Shown piece after piece: positions 11,027 through 37,798 of a stretch of 38,522 nucleotides of DNA. A program made the position numbers and the translations under genes. Numbering within the stretch: position 1 is the first letter of the stretch; every line of letters starts with the position of its first letter. Source of the stretch: Actinomycetota bacterium (lineage in GTDB: Bacteria; Actinomycetota; Acidimicrobiia; Acidimicrobiales; Ilumatobacteraceae). The stretch covers positions 1 through 38,522 of the forward strand of contig JAPKZR010000290.1 in assembly GCA_026393695.1 (NCBI GenBank). Reading direction: 5' to 3'. Under the pieces are notes generated by a model. That model searched no databases. It worked only from the letters and a program-made list of their open reading frames with translations, and had not been told where the DNA came from.

Positions 11027-11704
11027 TTAGAACAGCGTCGGTTGATCCGGCCGAACAACGCGCATGCCAGGCCATGGTACGAAGTTCTCCATGAACACCC
11101 AAGTGCGACGGTGAATTGCCGAGGGCCCATAGCCCTGCAGTGCCGTGCGGTGCAATGGGCACGGGTAGCCCTTGTTGGTATCGAAATGCCACTGCGGATA
11201 GTGCACGGCTTGCTCGCGCATGATTCGGTCGCGGGTGACCTTGGCAAGGATCGATGCGGCCGCTACCGAGAGGCAGATTGCATCGGCTTTCACGCGCATC
11301 TCTACGTGACGCACATGGGGTGCCACGAAGTTCCACTTGCCGTCGACCACTGCGGCATCGGCCGACACGCCAAGCGAATCGAGGGCCCGCTTCGCCGCCA
11401 ACTTTTGCGCGGCCGCCATGCCCAATTCATCGCACTCGACATGGCTCGCCGCACCAACAGCCCACGCATCGCACCAGCCTGCAACCCGATCAAAAATCTG
11501 CTCGCGGCCAGCCTCGGTAAGCATCTTCGAATCACGCACGCCATTCACACGCCGGTCACGTGGTAACACCGCAACACCAACCATGAGCGGACCGGCCCAC
11601 GAGCCACGACCAACTTCGTCGATGCCAACCACAATCTCGTGGCCGGCCTGCCATAACTCGCGCTCGATGTCGCGGGTGGGGGCTTTACTGCGACGAGCGG
11701 CCAT
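11027..11704 (-). CDS. rnhB: Ribonuclease HII
   Basis: VVGIDEVGRGSWAGPLMVGVAVL, DSKMLTEAGRE, ASILAKVTRDRIM. Confidence 0.92.
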   Translation of the reverse strand: MAARRSKAPTRDIERELWQAGHEIVVGIDEVGRGSWAGPLMVGVAVLPRDRRVNGVRDSKMLTEAGREQIFDRVAGWCDAWAVGAASHVECDELGMAAAQKLAAKRALDSLGVSADAAVVDGKWNFVAPHVRHVEMRVKADAICLSVAAASILAKVTRDRIMREQAVHYPQWHFDTNKGYPCPLHRTALQGYGPSAIHRRTWVFMENFVPWPGMRVVRPDQPTLF

Positions 11705-11710
11705 CGGGCG

Positions 11711-12724
11711 TTACTGCAGCACGATCTGAGCGTCGCCCGCGATGACGGTGCCGATGGTGACAAACCCGGCAGCAACCAGATCGGCCTCAGCCGAAGCGCT
11801 CACTGCTGCGAGCAGCCCGCCCGACGTTTGTGGGTCGTAGCCAATTGCCACTTGCGCATCGGTGAGATCGGCCGACGCACTCACGTGATGCTGCACATGC
11901 TCACGATTGCGGGGGTCGCCGCCGGTGCGTACGCCACGAGCCAAGGCATCGACCACACCCGAGTACATCGGCAGTCGGTTGTAGTCGTACGCAAACACTG
12001 CGCCAGCGCGCTCGGCCATCTCCCACGAGTGGCCGAACAATCCGAAGCCGGTGACATCGGTAACCGCGTGCACTGCAGCGCCCTCGGCCTGCAATGCCTC
12101 GGATGCCAAACGGTTGAGTCGACGCATGCCCGCAATGGCCTCGGCCTTGTCGGCATCGCTGCCTCCTGCCAATGCAATTGCTGTGCCGAGCGGCTTCGAG
12201 ATCATCAAGATGTCGCCAACCAACGCGCCCTCTTTGCGGAAGATGCGATCGGGGTGAACCAAGCCCTGCACCGCGAGTCCGAAGATGGGCTCAGGGTTGC
12301 GGATGGTGTGCCCGCCGGCAATGGCGCCACCTGCTTCGGCAACCACTGCGGCCGCCGCGTCGAAGATGGCAACGATGGCTTCGCGAGGGAAGTGCTCGGG
12401 GAACGCAGCCACATTGACGGCAACCGTGACGCGACCACCCATCGCGAACACGTCGCTGCACGCGTTGGCCGCAGCGATAGCGCCGAAGTCAGACGGATGG
12501 TCGACAAGCGGAGGAAAGAAGTCGGTGGTGCTGACCATCGCGAGGTCGTCGCTGATCTTGTACACGGCCGCATCGTCGAACGGAGCAAGTCCAACAATGA
12601 GCGCCGGATCTGATGCTGCGGGAAAGTCTTGCACCAGGCTCGAGAGCAACGAGGCTCCCCACTTGGCTGCGCAGCCTCCGCAAGAAGTCCACTCGGTGAG
12701 GCGCATATTGTCGATGTCAGTCAC
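11711..12724 (-). CDS. selD: Selenide, water dikinase (selenophosphate synthetase), Cys form
   Basis: LTEWTSCGGCAAKWGASLL (catalytic Cys/Lys region), DDAAVY, ANACSDVFAMGG, GGHTIRNPEPIFGLAVQG. GTG start at 12724 or ATG at 12706; the track start at 12886 lies inside the divergent MOSC gene. Confidence 0.9.
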   Translation of the reverse strand: MTDIDNMRLTEWTSCGGCAAKWGASLLSSLVQDFPAASDPALIVGLAPFDDAAVYKISDDLAMVSTTDFFPPLVDHPSDFGAIAAANACSDVFAMGGRVTVAVNVAAFPEHFPREAIVAIFDAAAAVVAEAGGAIAGGHTIRNPEPIFGLAVQGLVHPDRIFRKEGALVGDILMISKPLGTAIALAGGSDADKAEAIAGMRRLNRLASEALQAEGAAVHAVTDVTGFGLFGHSWEMAERAGAVFAYDYNRLPMYSGVVDALARGVRTGGDPRNREHVQHHVSASADLTDAQVAIGYDPQTSGGLLAAVSASAEADLVAAGFVTIGTVIAGDAQIVLQ

Positions 12725-12748
12725 GCGGCACAGCCTACGGTGAGAGCC

Positions 12749-13519
12749 ATGATCAGCCTCGGCCCCTACGAGTTCACCCAGACCGACGCCCTCCGAACGC
12801 TTGGCAACCTCGGCGACCTGTGGCTCACGATGATGCAGGGCCGCAGAAGCGCCGCCGCAGACGCTCTTGAGCAGAACCTCATTCACTCAATCACCGAAGC
12901 GATGGGCACCGCGCCAAACGCTTCGCTCAGCGAACTCGGAACCCTTGGCGCGCAAACACTGGGCGACTCCCCCGCACTCGAAGGAATCTTGGCAAGCGTG
13001 TGGTCTACGTTGGCCGCGGCCTCGCAGGCGTTGCGCGCCGACGGGCAGATGCCAGCCACAGCTACCGGCACGGTGACCCAACTCAGCTCGTCGAAAGGCG
13101 GAGTTCCGAAGTTGGCTCTTGAGTCGGTCGACGTTTCGTTTCGCGGCGTCGTCGGCGACATGCAAAAGTCTCGCAATCACCACGGGCGACCGTGGCAAGC
13201 GTTGTGCATCTATAGCGACGAAGTCATCAACCAGTTCCGCACCGACGGCCACCCAATTGAGCGCGGATCATCCGGAGAAAACATCACCACGTCGGGTCTC
13301 GATTGGGTCGACATCCGGCCCGGGGTACGGCTGCGCATCGGCACTGTGCTGGCCGATGTTCAGGCCTACGCAACCCCGTGCAAACACAACGCGCAATGGT
13401 TCAGCGACGGCGACTTCAACCGCATGAATTATCTGCGCGGTGCAGCGAGCCGGGTGTATGCAACCGTCATCGAACCAGGGCGTATTGTCACCGGCGATGC
13501 AGTGATTCTCGAGCCGTGA
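12749..13519 (+). CDS. MOSC-domain protein with about 110-residue N-terminal extension
   Basis: VDVSFRGVVGDMQKSRNHHGRPWQALCIYSDEVINQF...ERGSSGENITTSGLDW...YATPCKHNAQWF...GRIVTGDAVILEP, typical of MOSC/YiiM-like proteins. Confidence 0.82.
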   Translation: MISLGPYEFTQTDALRTLGNLGDLWLTMMQGRRSAAADALEQNLIHSITEAMGTAPNASLSELGTLGAQTLGDSPALEGILASVWSTLAAASQALRADGQMPATATGTVTQLSSSKGGVPKLALESVDVSFRGVVGDMQKSRNHHGRPWQALCIYSDEVINQFRTDGHPIERGSSGENITTSGLDWVDIRPGVRLRIGTVLADVQAYATPCKHNAQWFSDGDFNRMNYLRGAASRVYATVIEPGRIVTGDAVILEP

Positions 13520-31663: not shown

Positions 31664-33394
31664 TCAGCCGATGCGAACCTCAACGGCCTCAGCGGATTGA
31701 CGAGCGTGATAGCTGCTGCGCGTGAGCGGGCTGGATTCGACATGCCCAATGCCCAACGATTCGCCAAGCACCTTCCAGCGTTCAAACTCGGCTGGCTCAA
31801 TCCACCGTTGCACCGGCAAGTGGTTCGACGTTGGCCGCAGGTACTGCCCGATGGTGACGACATCGACGCCGATAGAGGCGAGGTCGAGCAACACGCCATC
31901 GACCTCGTCGACCGTTTCGCCCATACCCAACACAAAGCCTGACTTCGTGACGAGGCCTGCCGCCTTGGCCCGGGCTAACACGCTCAGGCTGCGCGCATAA
32001 CCAGCCGATGGCCGAACCGCACGCTGCAACCGAGGCACGGTCTCGACATTGTGGTTGAGCACATCGGGCCGAGCGGCAAACAGCAACGACAGTGCAGCGG
32101 GATCGCCCTTGCAATCGGAGATGAGCGTCTCGACTCGCGTGGTGGGACAACGAAGATGAATCGCTTCGACGCACGCTGCGACGTGAGCCATGCCACCGTC
32201 GTCGAGATCGTCGCGGGCCACCATCGTGAGCACTGCATGCGACACGCCCATGCGCTCGATGGCTTCAGCCACGCGTTGGGGTTCGTCGGGCGACGGGGGC
32301 AGCGGCTTGTTGGTGTCGACAAGACAGAACCCGCACGCACGCGTGCAACGTTCGCCTAGCACCATGAATGTCGCTGTGCCATCGGCCCAACACTCGCTCA
32401 GATTTGGGCATCCAGCTTCTTCGCACACGGTGACGAGATTGAGGTCGCGCACGGTTCGTTTCAGCGCCAGCACCTCGGCGCCAAGCTGCACCTTGGGCCG
32501 CAACCACTCGGGCTTGCGGTCGCTGAGCGCAACCGATTCGGTCACGCCGGCTTGCGCCAAACGCGCCCGCATGCGCACCGGCTCTGGTCGAGCGTGGTCA
32601 TCGCGTTGAGGTTGGGCCACACCATGGTCGCTCGCCGAACGCACTGGCGCGCCCGGACCTTCGCCACGCGAAAACGCAGACAGGTCGTCGGGACGCTCAC
32701 GCCACGCCACGTCTTGACGCTCGGCGGCGCCGTGTGCCCAACGCGCTGCAGCGAGACGAGCAACGACATCGACCACATCGGCCATCGACGCATCGATGCC
32801 TTCTTCGAGCAGCGACGTAACGGGTCGATCGGCGATACCGCACGCAACGATGTACTCACGCAAGTAGCGCATATCGGTGCTCACGTTGAGCCCGAATCCG
32901 TGCATGCTTCGACCCCGCGACACGCGAATGCCAATGGCACAAATCTTGCGGGGATTCGGACCGTCTGGGTCGACCCACACACCTGGATACTCGGCGAGGC
33001 GTCCGGCATTGGGCACGCCCAGTTCGCTGAGCGCGTCGATAATGAGCTGCTCGACATTGCGCACATGCGCCACCGTGTCGGCAGGACCAGCAGCGCCACC
33101 GTGCTTAGGGTTCAACGACAACACCGGGTAACCCACCAGCTGACCGGGGCCGTGATACGTGACATCACCGCCGCGGTTCACCGCCAGCAGTTCGGCACCC
33201 ACCGAGGCGGGATCGACCAACACGTTGGCCGATACATCGGCCCGCGAACCGTGGGTAAACACATGGCGATGCTCGAGCAACAACAAGTGGTTGCGTGATC
33301 CGTGTTCGAACAACGCGTTCTGCACCGCCAACGCTTCGCTGTATGGAACGCGGCCGAGCCAACGCACTTGCAGCGGCCCGGCGGAAGAGCTCAT
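31664..33394 (-). CDS. LipB-LipA fusion: octanoyltransferase (N-terminal) plus lipoyl synthase (C-terminal) in one ORF
   Basis: LipB part: NRGGDVTYHGPGQLVGYPVL...RKICAIGIRVSRGRSMHGFGLNVSTDMR...ACGIADRPVTSL. LipA part: CEEAGCPNLSEC, CTRACGFC, RSSYHA. No intervening stop in the 582-aa track ORF; ATG at 33394 chosen. Confidence 0.9.
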   Translation of the reverse strand: MSSSAGPLQVRWLGRVPYSEALAVQNALFEHGSRNHLLLLEHRHVFTHGSRADVSANVLVDPASVGAELLAVNRGGDVTYHGPGQLVGYPVLSLNPKHGGAAGPADTVAHVRNVEQLIIDALSELGVPNAGRLAEYPGVWVDPDGPNPRKICAIGIRVSRGRSMHGFGLNVSTDMRYLREYIVACGIADRPVTSLLEEGIDASMADVVDVVARLAAARWAHGAAERQDVAWRERPDDLSAFSRGEGPGAPVRSASDHGVAQPQRDDHARPEPVRMRARLAQAGVTESVALSDRKPEWLRPKVQLGAEVLALKRTVRDLNLVTVCEEAGCPNLSECWADGTATFMVLGERCTRACGFCLVDTNKPLPPSPDEPQRVAEAIERMGVSHAVLTMVARDDLDDGGMAHVAACVEAIHLRCPTTRVETLISDCKGDPAALSLLFAARPDVLNHNVETVPRLQRAVRPSAGYARSLSVLARAKAAGLVTKSGFVLGMGETVDEVDGVLLDLASIGVDVVTIGQYLRPTSNHLPVQRWIEPAEFERWKVLGESLGIGHVESSPLTRSSYHARQSAEAVEVRIG

Positions 33395-34842
33395 CAGAGC
33401 TCGGCACCCCAATCGCGGGTCTCGAGCAGTGCCTTCACCTTGACCAAGAAGCCGGCGGCATAGGCGCCGTCGAATGCCCGATGGTCCCAGCTCATCGCGA
33501 GGTTGCCCATCGGATGAATGGCGATGCTCTCGCCACCATCTACCGAGCGCACAACCACGGGCTTACGCACGATTGCATCGGTAGACAAAATCGCCACCTG
33601 AGGCTGGTTGATGATGGCCATCGTGAGCACGCTGCCAGCGGAGCCGTTGTTGCTAATGGTGAACGTGCCGCCAGAGATCTCGTCGGGACCGAGCTTGCGA
33701 CCACGAGCTCGTGTGCCGAGATCATTGATCTCGCGAGCAATCGCGCGCAGGCGCTTGGTCTCGGCGCCACGGATAACCGGCACCAGCAGACCGCTGTAGT
33801 CGAGGTCTACGGCGATGCCGAGATCGACGAAGTTATGCACGATCAAGTTGTCGCCATCGACGGTGGCGTTGAGATGTGGAAACTCGCGCAACGCGTCGAC
33901 AACGGCGCGGGTGATAAAGCTCAGATACGTGATGCCGAAACCTTCGTCGGCTTTCCACGAGTCCTTGATCTTGTTACGTGTGGAATCGACGTTCGAGAAG
34001 TCGACCTCAACAACGCTGAATGCGTGAGGACTGACACCCTTGCTCATCACCATGTGAGCGCCAGTGAGCTTGCGAATCTTGCTGAGCTTCACGACATCGT
34101 CGCGTTCGTCGCTGACCGCCGGGGCCGGTGCTGCGACTGGAGCGGGAGCCACTGGGGCTGGAGCCACCGGAGCGGCAGCGACTGGCGCTGGCGCTGGCGT
34201 AGGAGCCGGAGCGACCGGCGCTGGCGCTGGCGCTGGAGCAGCTACCGGTGCAGGCGCCGCATTGGCTGCCATCGCATCGATGCGATCAAGCACATCTTCG
34301 CGAGTGATTCGTCCGCCAGGACCGGTGCCCACAAGCGACGCCGTATCGATGTTGTGCTCGGCCACGAGACGGCGCACCACTGGCGACAACAAGCGGTTGT
34401 CGTCGACACCGGCGGCCACAGCGGCTGCAGATGCAACTGCTGCAGCAACAGGGCTGACGGGCGCAGCGGCGGGCGCTGGGGCCACCACAGGGGCAACTGG
34501 CGCCACGGGGGCGGGCGCTGGAGGTGGGGGTGGTGGCGCCGGGACCTCAACAACTACGGGTGCAGGAGCAGGTGCTGGCGTGGGCGCCGGGGCTGGGGCA
34601 GCGCCGTCGGCTGCGCCCACCACGGCGATGATTGCTCCGACCGGAACTGTGTCGCCTTCTTGGGCGCGGATCTCAAGCAACACTCCGCTGCTTGGGGCTG
34701 GCACCTCGGTGTCGACCTTGTCGGTAGACACTTCGAACAATGGCTCATCGACTGTGACAGCGTCACCGACCTTTTTGAACCAGCGCGTGATCGTTCCCTC
34801 GGTCACTGTTTCGCCGAGTTGTGGCAACGTGATGTCAGCCAT
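33394..34842 (-). CDS. Dihydrolipoyllysine-residue acyltransferase (E2 of a 2-oxoacid dehydrogenase complex)
   Basis: Lipoyl domain EPLFEVSTDKVDTEVPAPSSGVL, Ala/Pro-rich linkers, peripheral-subunit-binding domain LLSPVVRRLVAEHNIDTASLVGTGPGGRITREDVL, catalytic MSWDHRAFDGA. Confidence 0.92.
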   Translation of the reverse strand: MADITLPQLGETVTEGTITRWFKKVGDAVTVDEPLFEVSTDKVDTEVPAPSSGVLLEIRAQEGDTVPVGAIIAVVGAADGAAPAPAPTPAPAPAPVVVEVPAPPPPPPAPAPVAPVAPVVAPAPAAAPVSPVAAAVASAAAVAAGVDDNRLLSPVVRRLVAEHNIDTASLVGTGPGGRITREDVLDRIDAMAANAAPAPVAAPAPAPAPVAPAPTPAPAPVAAAPVAPAPVAPAPVAAPAPAVSDERDDVVKLSKIRKLTGAHMVMSKGVSPHAFSVVEVDFSNVDSTRNKIKDSWKADEGFGITYLSFITRAVVDALREFPHLNATVDGDNLIVHNFVDLGIAVDLDYSGLLVPVIRGAETKRLRAIAREINDLGTRARGRKLGPDEISGGTFTISNNGSAGSVLTMAIINQPQVAILSTDAIVRKPVVVRSVDGGESIAIHPMGNLAMSWDHRAFDGAYAAGFLVKVKALLETRDWGAEL

Positions 34843-34878
34843 GAAATCCTTCCAAATCCTGCATTGCGTACGTGCGAA

Positions 34879-36321
34879 TCAGCTGTTGAGACTACGCCCG
34901 GTGAGAGACAACATCGTCTCACCGAACAGCTCGCTCAGGCTGGGATGCGGCTGAATGAATTCAGCAACTTCGGCGACGGTGGCTTCCCAGTTCACGGCGA
35001 GATACCCGCCGCTGAGCTGCTCGGTCACCCATGGGCCAACCATGTGCACACCGAGCACCTGGCCGGCGCTGCCGTCGGCGTTCTTCTTGGCAACGACCTT
35101 TACTAGGCCATCAATCTCGCCGATGATCTGAGCGCGGCTGTTAGCCCTGAACTGATGCTTGCTGACCACGATCTCGAAGCCAAGGGCAATCGCCGCCTCT
35201 TCTCCGAGACCAGACCACGCAACTTCGGGGTGACAGTAAATGGCCCACGGAACCCGGTCGTAACGAATTGGCATTGGCTTCTCGCCGAGCAGATCTTTGA
35301 CCACCAAGATCGCCTCTGCGTACGCGACGTGCGCGAGTTGCGGCGTGTTGATGAGGTCGCCGATTGCGTAGACGCCGGGCTCGCCGGTGCGGCAGAACTC
35401 GTCGACCTCGACAAAGCCTCGCTCGGTGACATTGACACGGGTGGAGGTCAATCCGAGTTCGTCGGCATAGGGGCGCCGGCCAACCGACACCACAACAGCA
35501 TCGACCTCAAGGCTCTCACCCTCACCAAAGTGAACCGTGGTGCTACCACGTCCGTCGGCTGCGGTTTGCGGCGTATGCCCGTTCACAGAAACGCCGGTGC
35601 GAATGTCGATGTTCTTCTTCTTAAAGCTACGCACCACAACATTGGCAAGGTCTGCATCGAGACCCGGCAAAATCTTTGGTAGCCCCTCAAGGATGGTGAC
35701 CTGCGAACCGAGGTCGGCAAACGTAGATGCGAACTCGCAGCCGATGGCACCGCCACCGATGACAGCCAAACGCGCCGGCACGTAATCGAGCATCAGCACT
35801 TCGTCGCTGGTCATGATTGGACCACCGCGATCGAAGCCTGGGATGGTTCGCGGAACCGAACCGGCAGCCAGCACAACTGCCCGGCCCTGGGCCTGCACAG
35901 TGCCACCCTCGGCCAACGCAACAGTGACCGTGCGGTCGGCGCCAAGCGAGCCAGAGCCAAGGTAGTACGTGACCTTGCGGCTCTTGATGAGCCCGCCGAT
36001 GCCCTTGACCAAACCGTCGACGATCTTTTGCTTGCGAGCCTGAGCCACAGCAAAGTTCACGTGCGGAGCGCTGGCCTCGATGCCGAAGTCGCCGGCGTGC
36101 ACAACGTGACGATTCACCGCGGCCGTTTCGAGAAACGCCTTCGCTGGAATGCAGCCTCTGTTCAGGCAGGTGCCGCCGACAACGTCTTTCTCGACGAGTG
36201 CCACGTTGAGACCAGCCGACGCTGCATACAGCGCGGCTCCGTAGCCTCCGGGGCCTCCCCCAATAATCACGAGATCGAACTGCTCGGCCAGACCAACCAC
36301 CTCCACACGTTGCTCTCGCAC
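34879..36321 (-). CDS. lpdA: Dihydrolipoyl dehydrogenase (E3)
   Basis: FDLVIIGGGPGGYGAALYAASAGLNVALVEKDVVGGTCLNRGCIPAKAFLE; C-terminal PHPSLSELFGE. Start may be slightly downstream of 36321. Confidence 0.93.
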   Translation of the reverse strand: MREQRVEVVGLAEQFDLVIIGGGPGGYGAALYAASAGLNVALVEKDVVGGTCLNRGCIPAKAFLETAAVNRHVVHAGDFGIEASAPHVNFAVAQARKQKIVDGLVKGIGGLIKSRKVTYYLGSGSLGADRTVTVALAEGGTVQAQGRAVVLAAGSVPRTIPGFDRGGPIMTSDEVLMLDYVPARLAVIGGGAIGCEFASTFADLGSQVTILEGLPKILPGLDADLANVVVRSFKKKNIDIRTGVSVNGHTPQTAADGRGSTTVHFGEGESLEVDAVVVSVGRRPYADELGLTSTRVNVTERGFVEVDEFCRTGEPGVYAIGDLINTPQLAHVAYAEAILVVKDLLGEKPMPIRYDRVPWAIYCHPEVAWSGLGEEAAIALGFEIVVSKHQFRANSRAQIIGEIDGLVKVVAKKNADGSAGQVLGVHMVGPWVTEQLSGGYLAVNWEATVAEVAEFIQPHPSLSELFGETMLSLTGRSLNS

Positions 36322-36409: not shown

Positions 36410-36841
36410 TTACGGCAGATCAATGTCCCAGCGCACGGCCTCTTGCGCTCGCTCGTAACGCAACACGCCTCGCTTGCTCGACGTGACGAACGCCAACACA
36501 CACGACGTTGGCTCAGCCACCTTTGTGGCACCGCACTGCGCGCCGACACTTGACGGCGCTGCCACAGGAGCAAGGTTTGCGTCGGTGCCCGAACCGAGCA
36601 CCCACGTGGTGGCCCCGTTCGGGTCGTCGGCTCCCACCAAGGTGACCGCAACGAGCATGAGATCGAGTTCGCGCTTGGCCGACACAACCGAGACCTTCAT
36701 GTCGCCGATGGTGGCGCTTTGGCCAACCGCCAGATGCGCTGGCGGGGATTTCTCGGTGATCAAAAACAGCTTGACGCTGCCAGCGAGCAAGATCACGAGC
36801 CCACACGTAACCGCAAGCAGGAGCAACGTTCGGGTCTTCAT
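36410..36841 (-). CDS. Membrane-anchored protein of unknown function
   Basis: MKTRTLLLLAVTCGLVILLAGSVKLFLITEKSPPAHLAVGQSATIGDMKVSVVSAKRELDLMLVAVTL; start 36841 chosen. Confidence 0.6.
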   Translation of the reverse strand: MKTRTLLLLAVTCGLVILLAGSVKLFLITEKSPPAHLAVGQSATIGDMKVSVVSAKRELDLMLVAVTLVGADDPNGATTWVLGSGTDANLAPVAAPSSVGAQCGATKVAEPTSCVLAFVTSSKRGVLRYERAQEAVRWDIDLP

Positions 36842-36902
36842 CCCCCACAGACTACGAACCAGTGCGACCCACACCTACTCGTGCCTCGGTAGGGTTGCGC
36901 AC

Positions 36903-37442
36903 ATGGCCACCGTTTTTCTTCACCGGCGCGCGATGCGCACGGTTGCTTTGATCGCCGCTGCCGCCGCACTCACGGCGTGCGGCAGCTCCGCGAAGATCAC
37001 TACCGCCGAGCCAACAACTGTGGCCACCTCGCCATCGAGCCTGTTGACCTTCACCTCTGCCACCGTCGGCGGCGGCCAGATCGATGCTGCCTCGTTCATC
37101 GGTAAACCCGTCGCCTTTTGGTTCTGGGCCCCTGGTTGAAGCGCGTGCAACGCAGAAGCCGCCTCGGTCGAGGCGGCCAGCAAGAAGTGGGCCGACAAGA
37201 TCACGGTTGTGGGCGTGGCATGGAACGGCGACGAAGCCTCAATGCAGGCGTTCATCGACCGTCACGGCATCACCTTTGCGAACATGAATGATCAGACCGG
37301 CGAACTCTTCGCCCGTTTCGGCGTACCGGCGCAACCCGCATGGGCCTTTGTGTCGCCAAACGGAAAGGCCACCGCCTATCTTGGCGTTATGGAAGAGACA
37401 GCTCTCGACGCCGCCCTCACGAACACGATTGCAGGCAACTGA
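36903..37442 (+). CDS. Predicted selenoprotein: DsbE/Mpt53-like thioredoxin-fold lipoprotein with in-frame TGA (Sec79) in a UxxC motif
   Basis: MATVFLHRRAMRTVALIAAAAALTACGSSAK...GKPVAFWFWAPG[U]SACNAEAASVEAASKKWADKITVVGVAWNGDEASMQAFIDRHGITFANMNDQTGELFARFGVPAQPAWAFVSPNGKATAYLGVMEETALDAALTNTIAGN*. The track splits it (36474..37139 and 37209..37442) in the same frame at TGA 37137-37139. Start 36903 or 36933. Confidence 0.88.
37158..37177 (+). promoter_or_regulatory. Putative bacterial SECIS hairpin
   Basis: GCCGCCTC-GGTC-GAGGCGGC: perfect 8-bp stem, GGTC apical loop at 37166-37169, first loop base 26 nt after the TGA. Confidence 0.75.
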
Positions 37443-37798
37443 TGGGGCTTCGCGATCTCGCCCAGCGGCTCAAGTCGAAGCCCGAGCATCTTGATGCCGA
37501 ACGACTGCAACAGCGCTTCACCGATCTCAAGCTGATGCCTATCTCCGAGCTGCAGTGCCGCGTGCCTTCGCGAGTTGGCGGCGAGGTCAAGCGCATTCGG
37601 GTCGCTCCACGCAAGGGCATTCCAGCGCTCGAGATCGTGGTATCCGATGGCACGGGCGATGCCGTTGCCGTGTTCACCGGCCGACGCGCCATCCGGGGCA
37701 TCGAGCACGGTCGCGCAATGGTCATCGAAGGCGTGGCGCACGACGAGCGCGGCCGCAGAGTAATGCTCAATCCGTCGTACACGCTGATCGCAAGCTAA
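37442..37798 (+). CDS. OB-fold nucleic-acid-binding-like protein
   Basis: MGLRDLAQRLKSKPEHLDAERLQQRF...RVPSRVGGEVKRIRVAPRKGIPALEIVVSDGTGDAVAVFTGRRAIRGIEHGRAMVIEGVAHDERGRRVMLNPSYTLI; TGATG overlap with the selenoprotein stop. Confidence 0.78.
   Translation: MGLRDLAQRLKSKPEHLDAERLQQRFTDLKLMPISELQCRVPSRVGGEVKRIRVAPRKGIPALEIVVSDGTGDAVAVFTGRRAIRGIEHGRAMVIEGVAHDERGRRVMLNPSYTLIAS

Follow-up and report, generated by a model that had tools for sequence, protein, structure and literature searches.

An in-frame TGA interrupts a thioredoxin gene in a draft Ilumatobacteraceae genome, and we are highly confident that it specifies selenocysteine (Sec): positions 36903-37442 (+) very probably encode an exported lipoprotein thioredoxin of the Mpt53 (DsbE)/DsbF type whose active-site motif begins with Sec (U79-S-A-C82). 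The gene lies on contig JAPKZR010000290.1 of assembly GCA_026393695.1 (2.70 Mb, 346 contigs, 88.9% complete), and "the window" denotes this whole 38,522-nt stretch. Because the same arrangement is kept in most members of a large aquatic family, we regard the locus as a real selenoprotein gene and not as a broken one.

The frame comprises 179 residues and reads MATVFLHRRAMRTVALIAAAAALTACGSS...GKPVAFWFWAPG-U-SAC-NAEAASVEAASKKW...VPAQPAWAFV...IAGN-stop. Its single internal TGA (37137-37139), read as U79 on the evidence of the sequence and its homologues, occupies the first position of a UxxC motif whose resolving Cys82 is encoded by TGC at 37146-37148; 100 sense codons then lead to the stop TGA at 37440-37442, which shares one base with the ATG (37442) of the next ORF. 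The sequence-only reading had described one frame broken by this TGA alone and continuing for about 100 codons to a stop coupled with the next gene, and both its coordinates and its reading were right. It had also recognized a signal peptide with an LTAC lipobox (36903-36980, lipidation predicted at Cys26), a feature that proved to be kept in most Sec homologues (84 of 104 by pattern, with the lipobox visible by eye in several others). An alternative start, ATG 36933 (M11), offers an equally good lipoprotein signal, MRTVALIAAAAALTAC. A lipobox combined with a single thioredoxin domain indicates that the protein is extracytoplasmic and anchored to the membrane. Translation with table 11 breaks the region into mere fragments, a 221-aa ORF that stops at the TGA and another ORF, out of frame, from 37340; since such calling ends the frame at the UGA, annotation is likely to truncate the gene or miss it.

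Table 11 does read a stop at 37137-37139, as expected if the locus were a pseudogene or encoded a programmed short N-terminal peptide, with the downstream part decaying or separately translated. However, in an alignment of 20 homologues (39-91% identity) 23 columns are invariant, and they lie to either side of the TGA. Cys82 is invariant there, as are Q144 and P145 of the cis-Pro region (Ala-Gln-Pro codons A143-Q144-P145, 37329-37337, +); the sequence-only reading had noted the resolving Cys and the cis-Pro region as intact. The TGA is moreover conserved across 137 genomes, and silent sites after it covary. A genuine stop is refuted by this conservation, and we consider it very improbable.

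A strong homologue bearing the TGA was found in 137 of 222 Ilumatobacteraceae genomes with the downstream frame kept, which makes decay or a sequencing error unlikely, in line with the earlier judgment. The TGA stands at the active-site codon in all 30 of the 30 best Ilumatobacteraceae loci, and in a second, independent named collection the same codon is TGA in 77 and TGC in one of 78 motif copies. The draft state of the genome (346 contigs) could suggest a sequencing, assembly or MAG artefact replacing TGC or TGG, but independent assemblies from numerous studies show TGA at this codon, the single-contig genomes G102, G109 and G111 carry the in-frame TGA, and so does Ilumatobacter nonamiensis YM16-303 (L055), a named strain. 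Given this recurrence we rejected an error of sequencing or assembly, whose probability we regard as negligible.

Homologues carrying either TGA or Cys at residue 79 were both recovered. More distant TGA forms, again at the active-site codon, occur in many other Acidimicrobiia families, and a profile search counting stops found TGA forms beside Cys forms in further Actinomycetota families. The Cys homologues (L172-L180, L183) have CxxC at the TGA position, and most are without the hairpin described below. A quick tree of 75 proteins implies about 5-6 switches of the Sec/Cys label, of which starred branches force at least 4; judged by this codon, Sec forms are interspersed with Cys forms in Acidimicrobiia and in other Actinomycetota. 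The lone TGC copy of the named collection (L172, G122:C154:60205-62022) sits in tandem with a TGA partner that has the hairpin (L102) in one Ilumatobacteraceae genome and itself lacks it, with TCTACCGTCCAGT in place of CCTCGGTCGAGG. This pair constitutes a natural Sec/Cys swap inside one genome. At another locus (L164, G475:C11:11105-12753), two adjacent TGA homologues stand in tandem, each with UxxC and a GGTC loop. Such natural exchanges of Sec and Cys, one of them within a tandem pair, can serve to ask what advantage Sec gives an extracytoplasmic thioredoxin.

Downstream of the TGA we identified a bacterial SECIS-like hairpin (37158-37177, +) at the expected distance, with arms at 37158-37165 and 37170-37177 forming 8 perfect pairs around a GGUC loop (37166-37169) whose first G lies 27 nt after the UGA. 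It fits the described bacterial SECIS feature of a small apical loop with a guanosine (PMC1088965), here just 3' of the UGA. Across 31 diverse sequences, pairing was retained in 88.0% of cells versus 71.6 ± 1.9% after shuffling and 33-57% with slid partners, double-change cells numbered 33 versus 10.6 in shuffles, and the covariation score was reached by 0 of 500 shuffles, while among 114 distinct sequences the four pairs varying on both sides exceeded all 2000 shuffles. The strongest single observation for the hairpin is synonymous covariation at codons 87 and 90: in sequences with Glu at position 90, the third bases of the two codons are C:G in 86, U:A in 4 and G:G in 1, with C:A and U:G in 0 (Fisher p=4e-7). 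Codon choice in the loop is also restricted, TCG-GTC-GAG/GAA being used in 73 of 73 genes, compared with GTC for 35% of Val and TCG for 24% of Ser elsewhere in the same genes. All these hairpin statistics come from related sequences, and their probabilities are guides rather than exact values. The folding energy of the single window sequence is unexceptional (z=-0.75); the case for the hairpin rests on conservation. Some Sec copies outside Ilumatobacteraceae pair poorly at single positions, and the window has no Rfam matches at gathering thresholds. When the genome was searched with a SECIS covariance model (R1), the Sec locus was the sole confident match (E=2.5e-15; next best 0.1), and none of the nine next matches, which we inspected, has a TGA followed by a long open frame, so no further selenoproteins were revealed by this search.

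The genome encodes the complete set of Sec genes sought, selA, selB and selC, plus selD; with the homologues and the hairpin, all checks proposed by the sequence-only reading that sequence can answer were positive. tRNA-Sec with anticodon UCA scored over its cut-off (64.3 bits), selA reached 395.5 bits (cut-off 267.9), and selB lies directly behind it (288.1 bits, cut-off 242.25). selD, encoding selenophosphate synthetase, is located in the same window as the Sec gene (11711-12886, -; TIGR00476 317 bits, cut-off 125); its longest ORF places about 58 residues ahead of the SelD domain, so translation probably begins at a more internal start, and RNase HII (11027-11704, -) is the next gene after it. 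A formate dehydrogenase alpha subunit (Fdh-alpha) with one in-frame TGA (G000:C215:8747-10615, -) is a second, canonical selenoprotein candidate of the genome, and its presence makes it very probable that UGA is read as Sec at other places in this organism as well. Read-through of the UGA in the thioredoxin gene would also follow from a general reassignment of this codon, for example to Trp, but the other window genes have ordinary table-11 frames, the Sec gene itself ends in TGA, homologues have Cys and not Trp at the position, and the Sec pathway genes and the hairpin are present. Reassignment was rejected on these grounds and appears extremely unlikely.

Across the 222 genomes, selA and the TGA homologue were found together in 125, the homologue only in 12, selA only in 42 and neither in 43, a co-occurrence (Fisher p=4e-12) calculated ignoring the relatedness of the genomes. 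Among genomes at least 95% complete the corresponding counts were 24, 0, 3 and 5, and just one of the 12 TGA genomes without a selA match is at least 90% complete. Of the 125 genomes that carry both selA and the TGA homologue, 72 (29 of these being at least 90% complete) have no TGA-bearing Fdh-alpha among the matches listed, which extend down to weak ones and could miss short pieces. Because of these 72 genomes, selA retention is not explained by formate dehydrogenase alone, and the Sec thioredoxin may be the main Sec user in Ilumatobacteraceae. Another 34 selA-bearing Ilumatobacteraceae genomes have neither the TGA-thioredoxin nor a TGA-Fdh among the matches listed, and these probably hold other selenoproteins or have the genes in missing draft parts. 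We tentatively suggest, giving the idea slightly less than an even chance, that Ilumatobacteraceae, even those with 1-2 Mb genomes, keep the Sec pathway mainly for an as yet unnamed subfamily of exported Sec-thioredoxins, which in many species may be the sole reason to keep it. If true, their Sec economy would be built on extracytoplasmic redox and not on formate dehydrogenase, suggesting a reason other than that enzyme for small genomes to keep costly Sec decoding.

The read-through protein matched the Pfam domains AhpC-TSA (PF00578, 49.2 bits, cut-off 26) and Redoxin (PF08534, 45.1 bits, cut-off 26.6). Its closest solved relative by sequence is M. tuberculosis Mpt53/DsbE (1lu4, E=2.9e-25), in a match that spans the TGA, followed by DsbF (3ios, E=2.3e-22); in both, the first active-site Cys lines up with the TGA, exactly as the sequence-only reading had placed it. 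An AlphaFold model built from 20 homologues has a mean pLDDT of 84.9, rising to about 97 across most of the domain. Its best PDB fold matches are the same two proteins (3ios, rmsd 1.1 Å; 1lu4, rmsd 1.4 Å), and in the model Sec directly precedes the helix after strand 70-75, like the CxxC of thioredoxins. The Mpt53/DsbE-type assignment made from the sequence thus holds by sequence and by fold. The window protein stays below the cut-off of every NCBIfam model of release 20.0, including those for ResA (NF002854, 50.8 of 170 bits) and dsbE (TIGR00385, 26.5 of 123), and the 20 aligned homologues match the same generic models. As AhpC-TSA is the best Pfam model (PF00578), the selenoprotein might act mainly as an extracytoplasmic AhpC/TSA-type peroxidase; we consider this improbable, given a motif that is UxxC at the thioredoxin position and not the peroxiredoxin PxxxTxxC/U, and closest structures that are Mpt53, DsbF and ResA.

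The surroundings of the gene gave no function for it across the family loci. Downstream lies a 118-aa ORF (37442-37798, +) whose start overlaps the Sec gene stop; it has no Pfam match, looks OB-fold-like by eye only and is often syntenic. On the other side, a divergent 154-aa ORF (36410-36874, -) is a syntenic neighbour in 31 of 80 loci. Further upstream of the Sec gene, at 31664-36321 (-), the window carries genes identified by eye as a lipB-/lipA-like frame, a dihydrolipoyl acyltransferase E2 and a dihydrolipoamide dehydrogenase, and many family members conserve this arrangement beside the Sec gene. Part of Ilumatobacteraceae commonly shows the order Lpd - 154 aa - Sec gene - 118 aa - TrkA, and other genomes have unrelated neighbours.

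We propose that the UGA at 37137 would be decoded by tRNA-Sec(UCA), a step suggested by the pathway genes, the conserved UGA and the covarying hairpin. The tRNA would be charged through SelA with selenophosphate from SelD, and SelB would bring in the Sec-tRNA by recognising the GGUC-loop hairpin 27 nt downstream. Following export, the protein would be cleaved, lipidated at Cys26 and held at the outer face of its membrane, as its lipobox predicts. There, by homology, U79 would attack substrate disulfides or sulfenates and C82 would resolve the mixed selenenylsulfide. The protein might act as a fast, oxidation-resistant reductase or exchange enzyme fed by a CcdA-type membrane partner.

The direction of the reaction is more finely balanced. 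As a rule, Sec lowers redox potential and gives protection from irreversible oxidation. We weakly favour a reductase or exchange role over that of a primary oxidase, because Sec usually has this effect on potential, a CcdA-like gene was found and VKOR was not. The CcdA-like gene, the only one in the genome, scores 23.4 bits, under the Pfam cut-off of 27.1, and is found on another contig. It lies directly behind a Cys-only TlpA-like paralogue (L181, G000:C203:2723-3754; L184), with which it possibly forms the organism's reductive pair. The selenoprotein could instead work mainly as a disulfide-forming oxidase, a substantial possibility to which we give rather less than an even chance: in vitro, the closest relatives that have been characterised, Mt-DsbE and Mt-DsbF, are able to oxidise hirudin but not to reduce insulin, and DsbD or Rv2877c has been proposed as their partner (PMC3853704). 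The same fold and cis-Pro region are found in the Sec protein. Against a main role as oxidase stand the tendency of Sec to lower the potential and the lack of a VKOR match in the draft genome, which is 89% complete. The gene brings a very probable exported Sec enzyme to bacteria that occur in many assemblies from lakes and groundwater.

The protein is of a known kind of selenoprotein, because UxxC families with a thioredoxin fold have already been described. Known umbrella families comprise the Prx-like thiol:disulfide oxidoreductases (PF00578), the thiol-disulfide isomerase-like proteins (cd02966) and Redoxin (PF08534) (PMC9312934; PMC13188914), which share the thioredoxin fold and UxxC with the Sec protein. 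These are broad domain classes, and the Sec protein may be identical with one of them, for example with the Redoxin family protein that the reviews represent by MBA3499694.1 and HEU0032618.1. The exported Mpt53-type actinobacterial branch is not described in those two reviews, and among publications open without subscription we found nothing relevant on selenoproteins of Ilumatobacter, Acidimicrobiia or Actinomycetota, nor is the gene covered by any NCBIfam model of release 20.0. Two families linked to Sec by name, NF041054 ("ResA-like WAxxUGC motif-containing protein") and NF053656 ("TUGYCR motif thioredoxin fold (seleno)protein"), also have a thioredoxin fold, but their motif is UGC or TUGYCR and not UxxC, and they matched weakly (2 of 20 members, or E=0.057). 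The extracytoplasmic thiol-disulfide oxidoreductases ResA, StoA and TlpA belong to the same superfamily and gave significant NCBIfam matches below cut-off, but their characterised references are Cys forms and the Sec protein falls far below the curated cut-offs. Closest of all are Mpt53/DsbE (Rv2878c, 1lu4) and DsbF (Rv1677, 3ios) of M. tuberculosis, which like the Sec protein are exported single-domain thioredoxin folds, with a common WFW-x-P-x-C/U-x-x-C motif and QPA cis-Pro region; whereas the mycobacterial proteins have Cys at the first active-site position, the Ilumatobacteraceae protein has Sec there, together with a SECIS hairpin and a clear lipobox.
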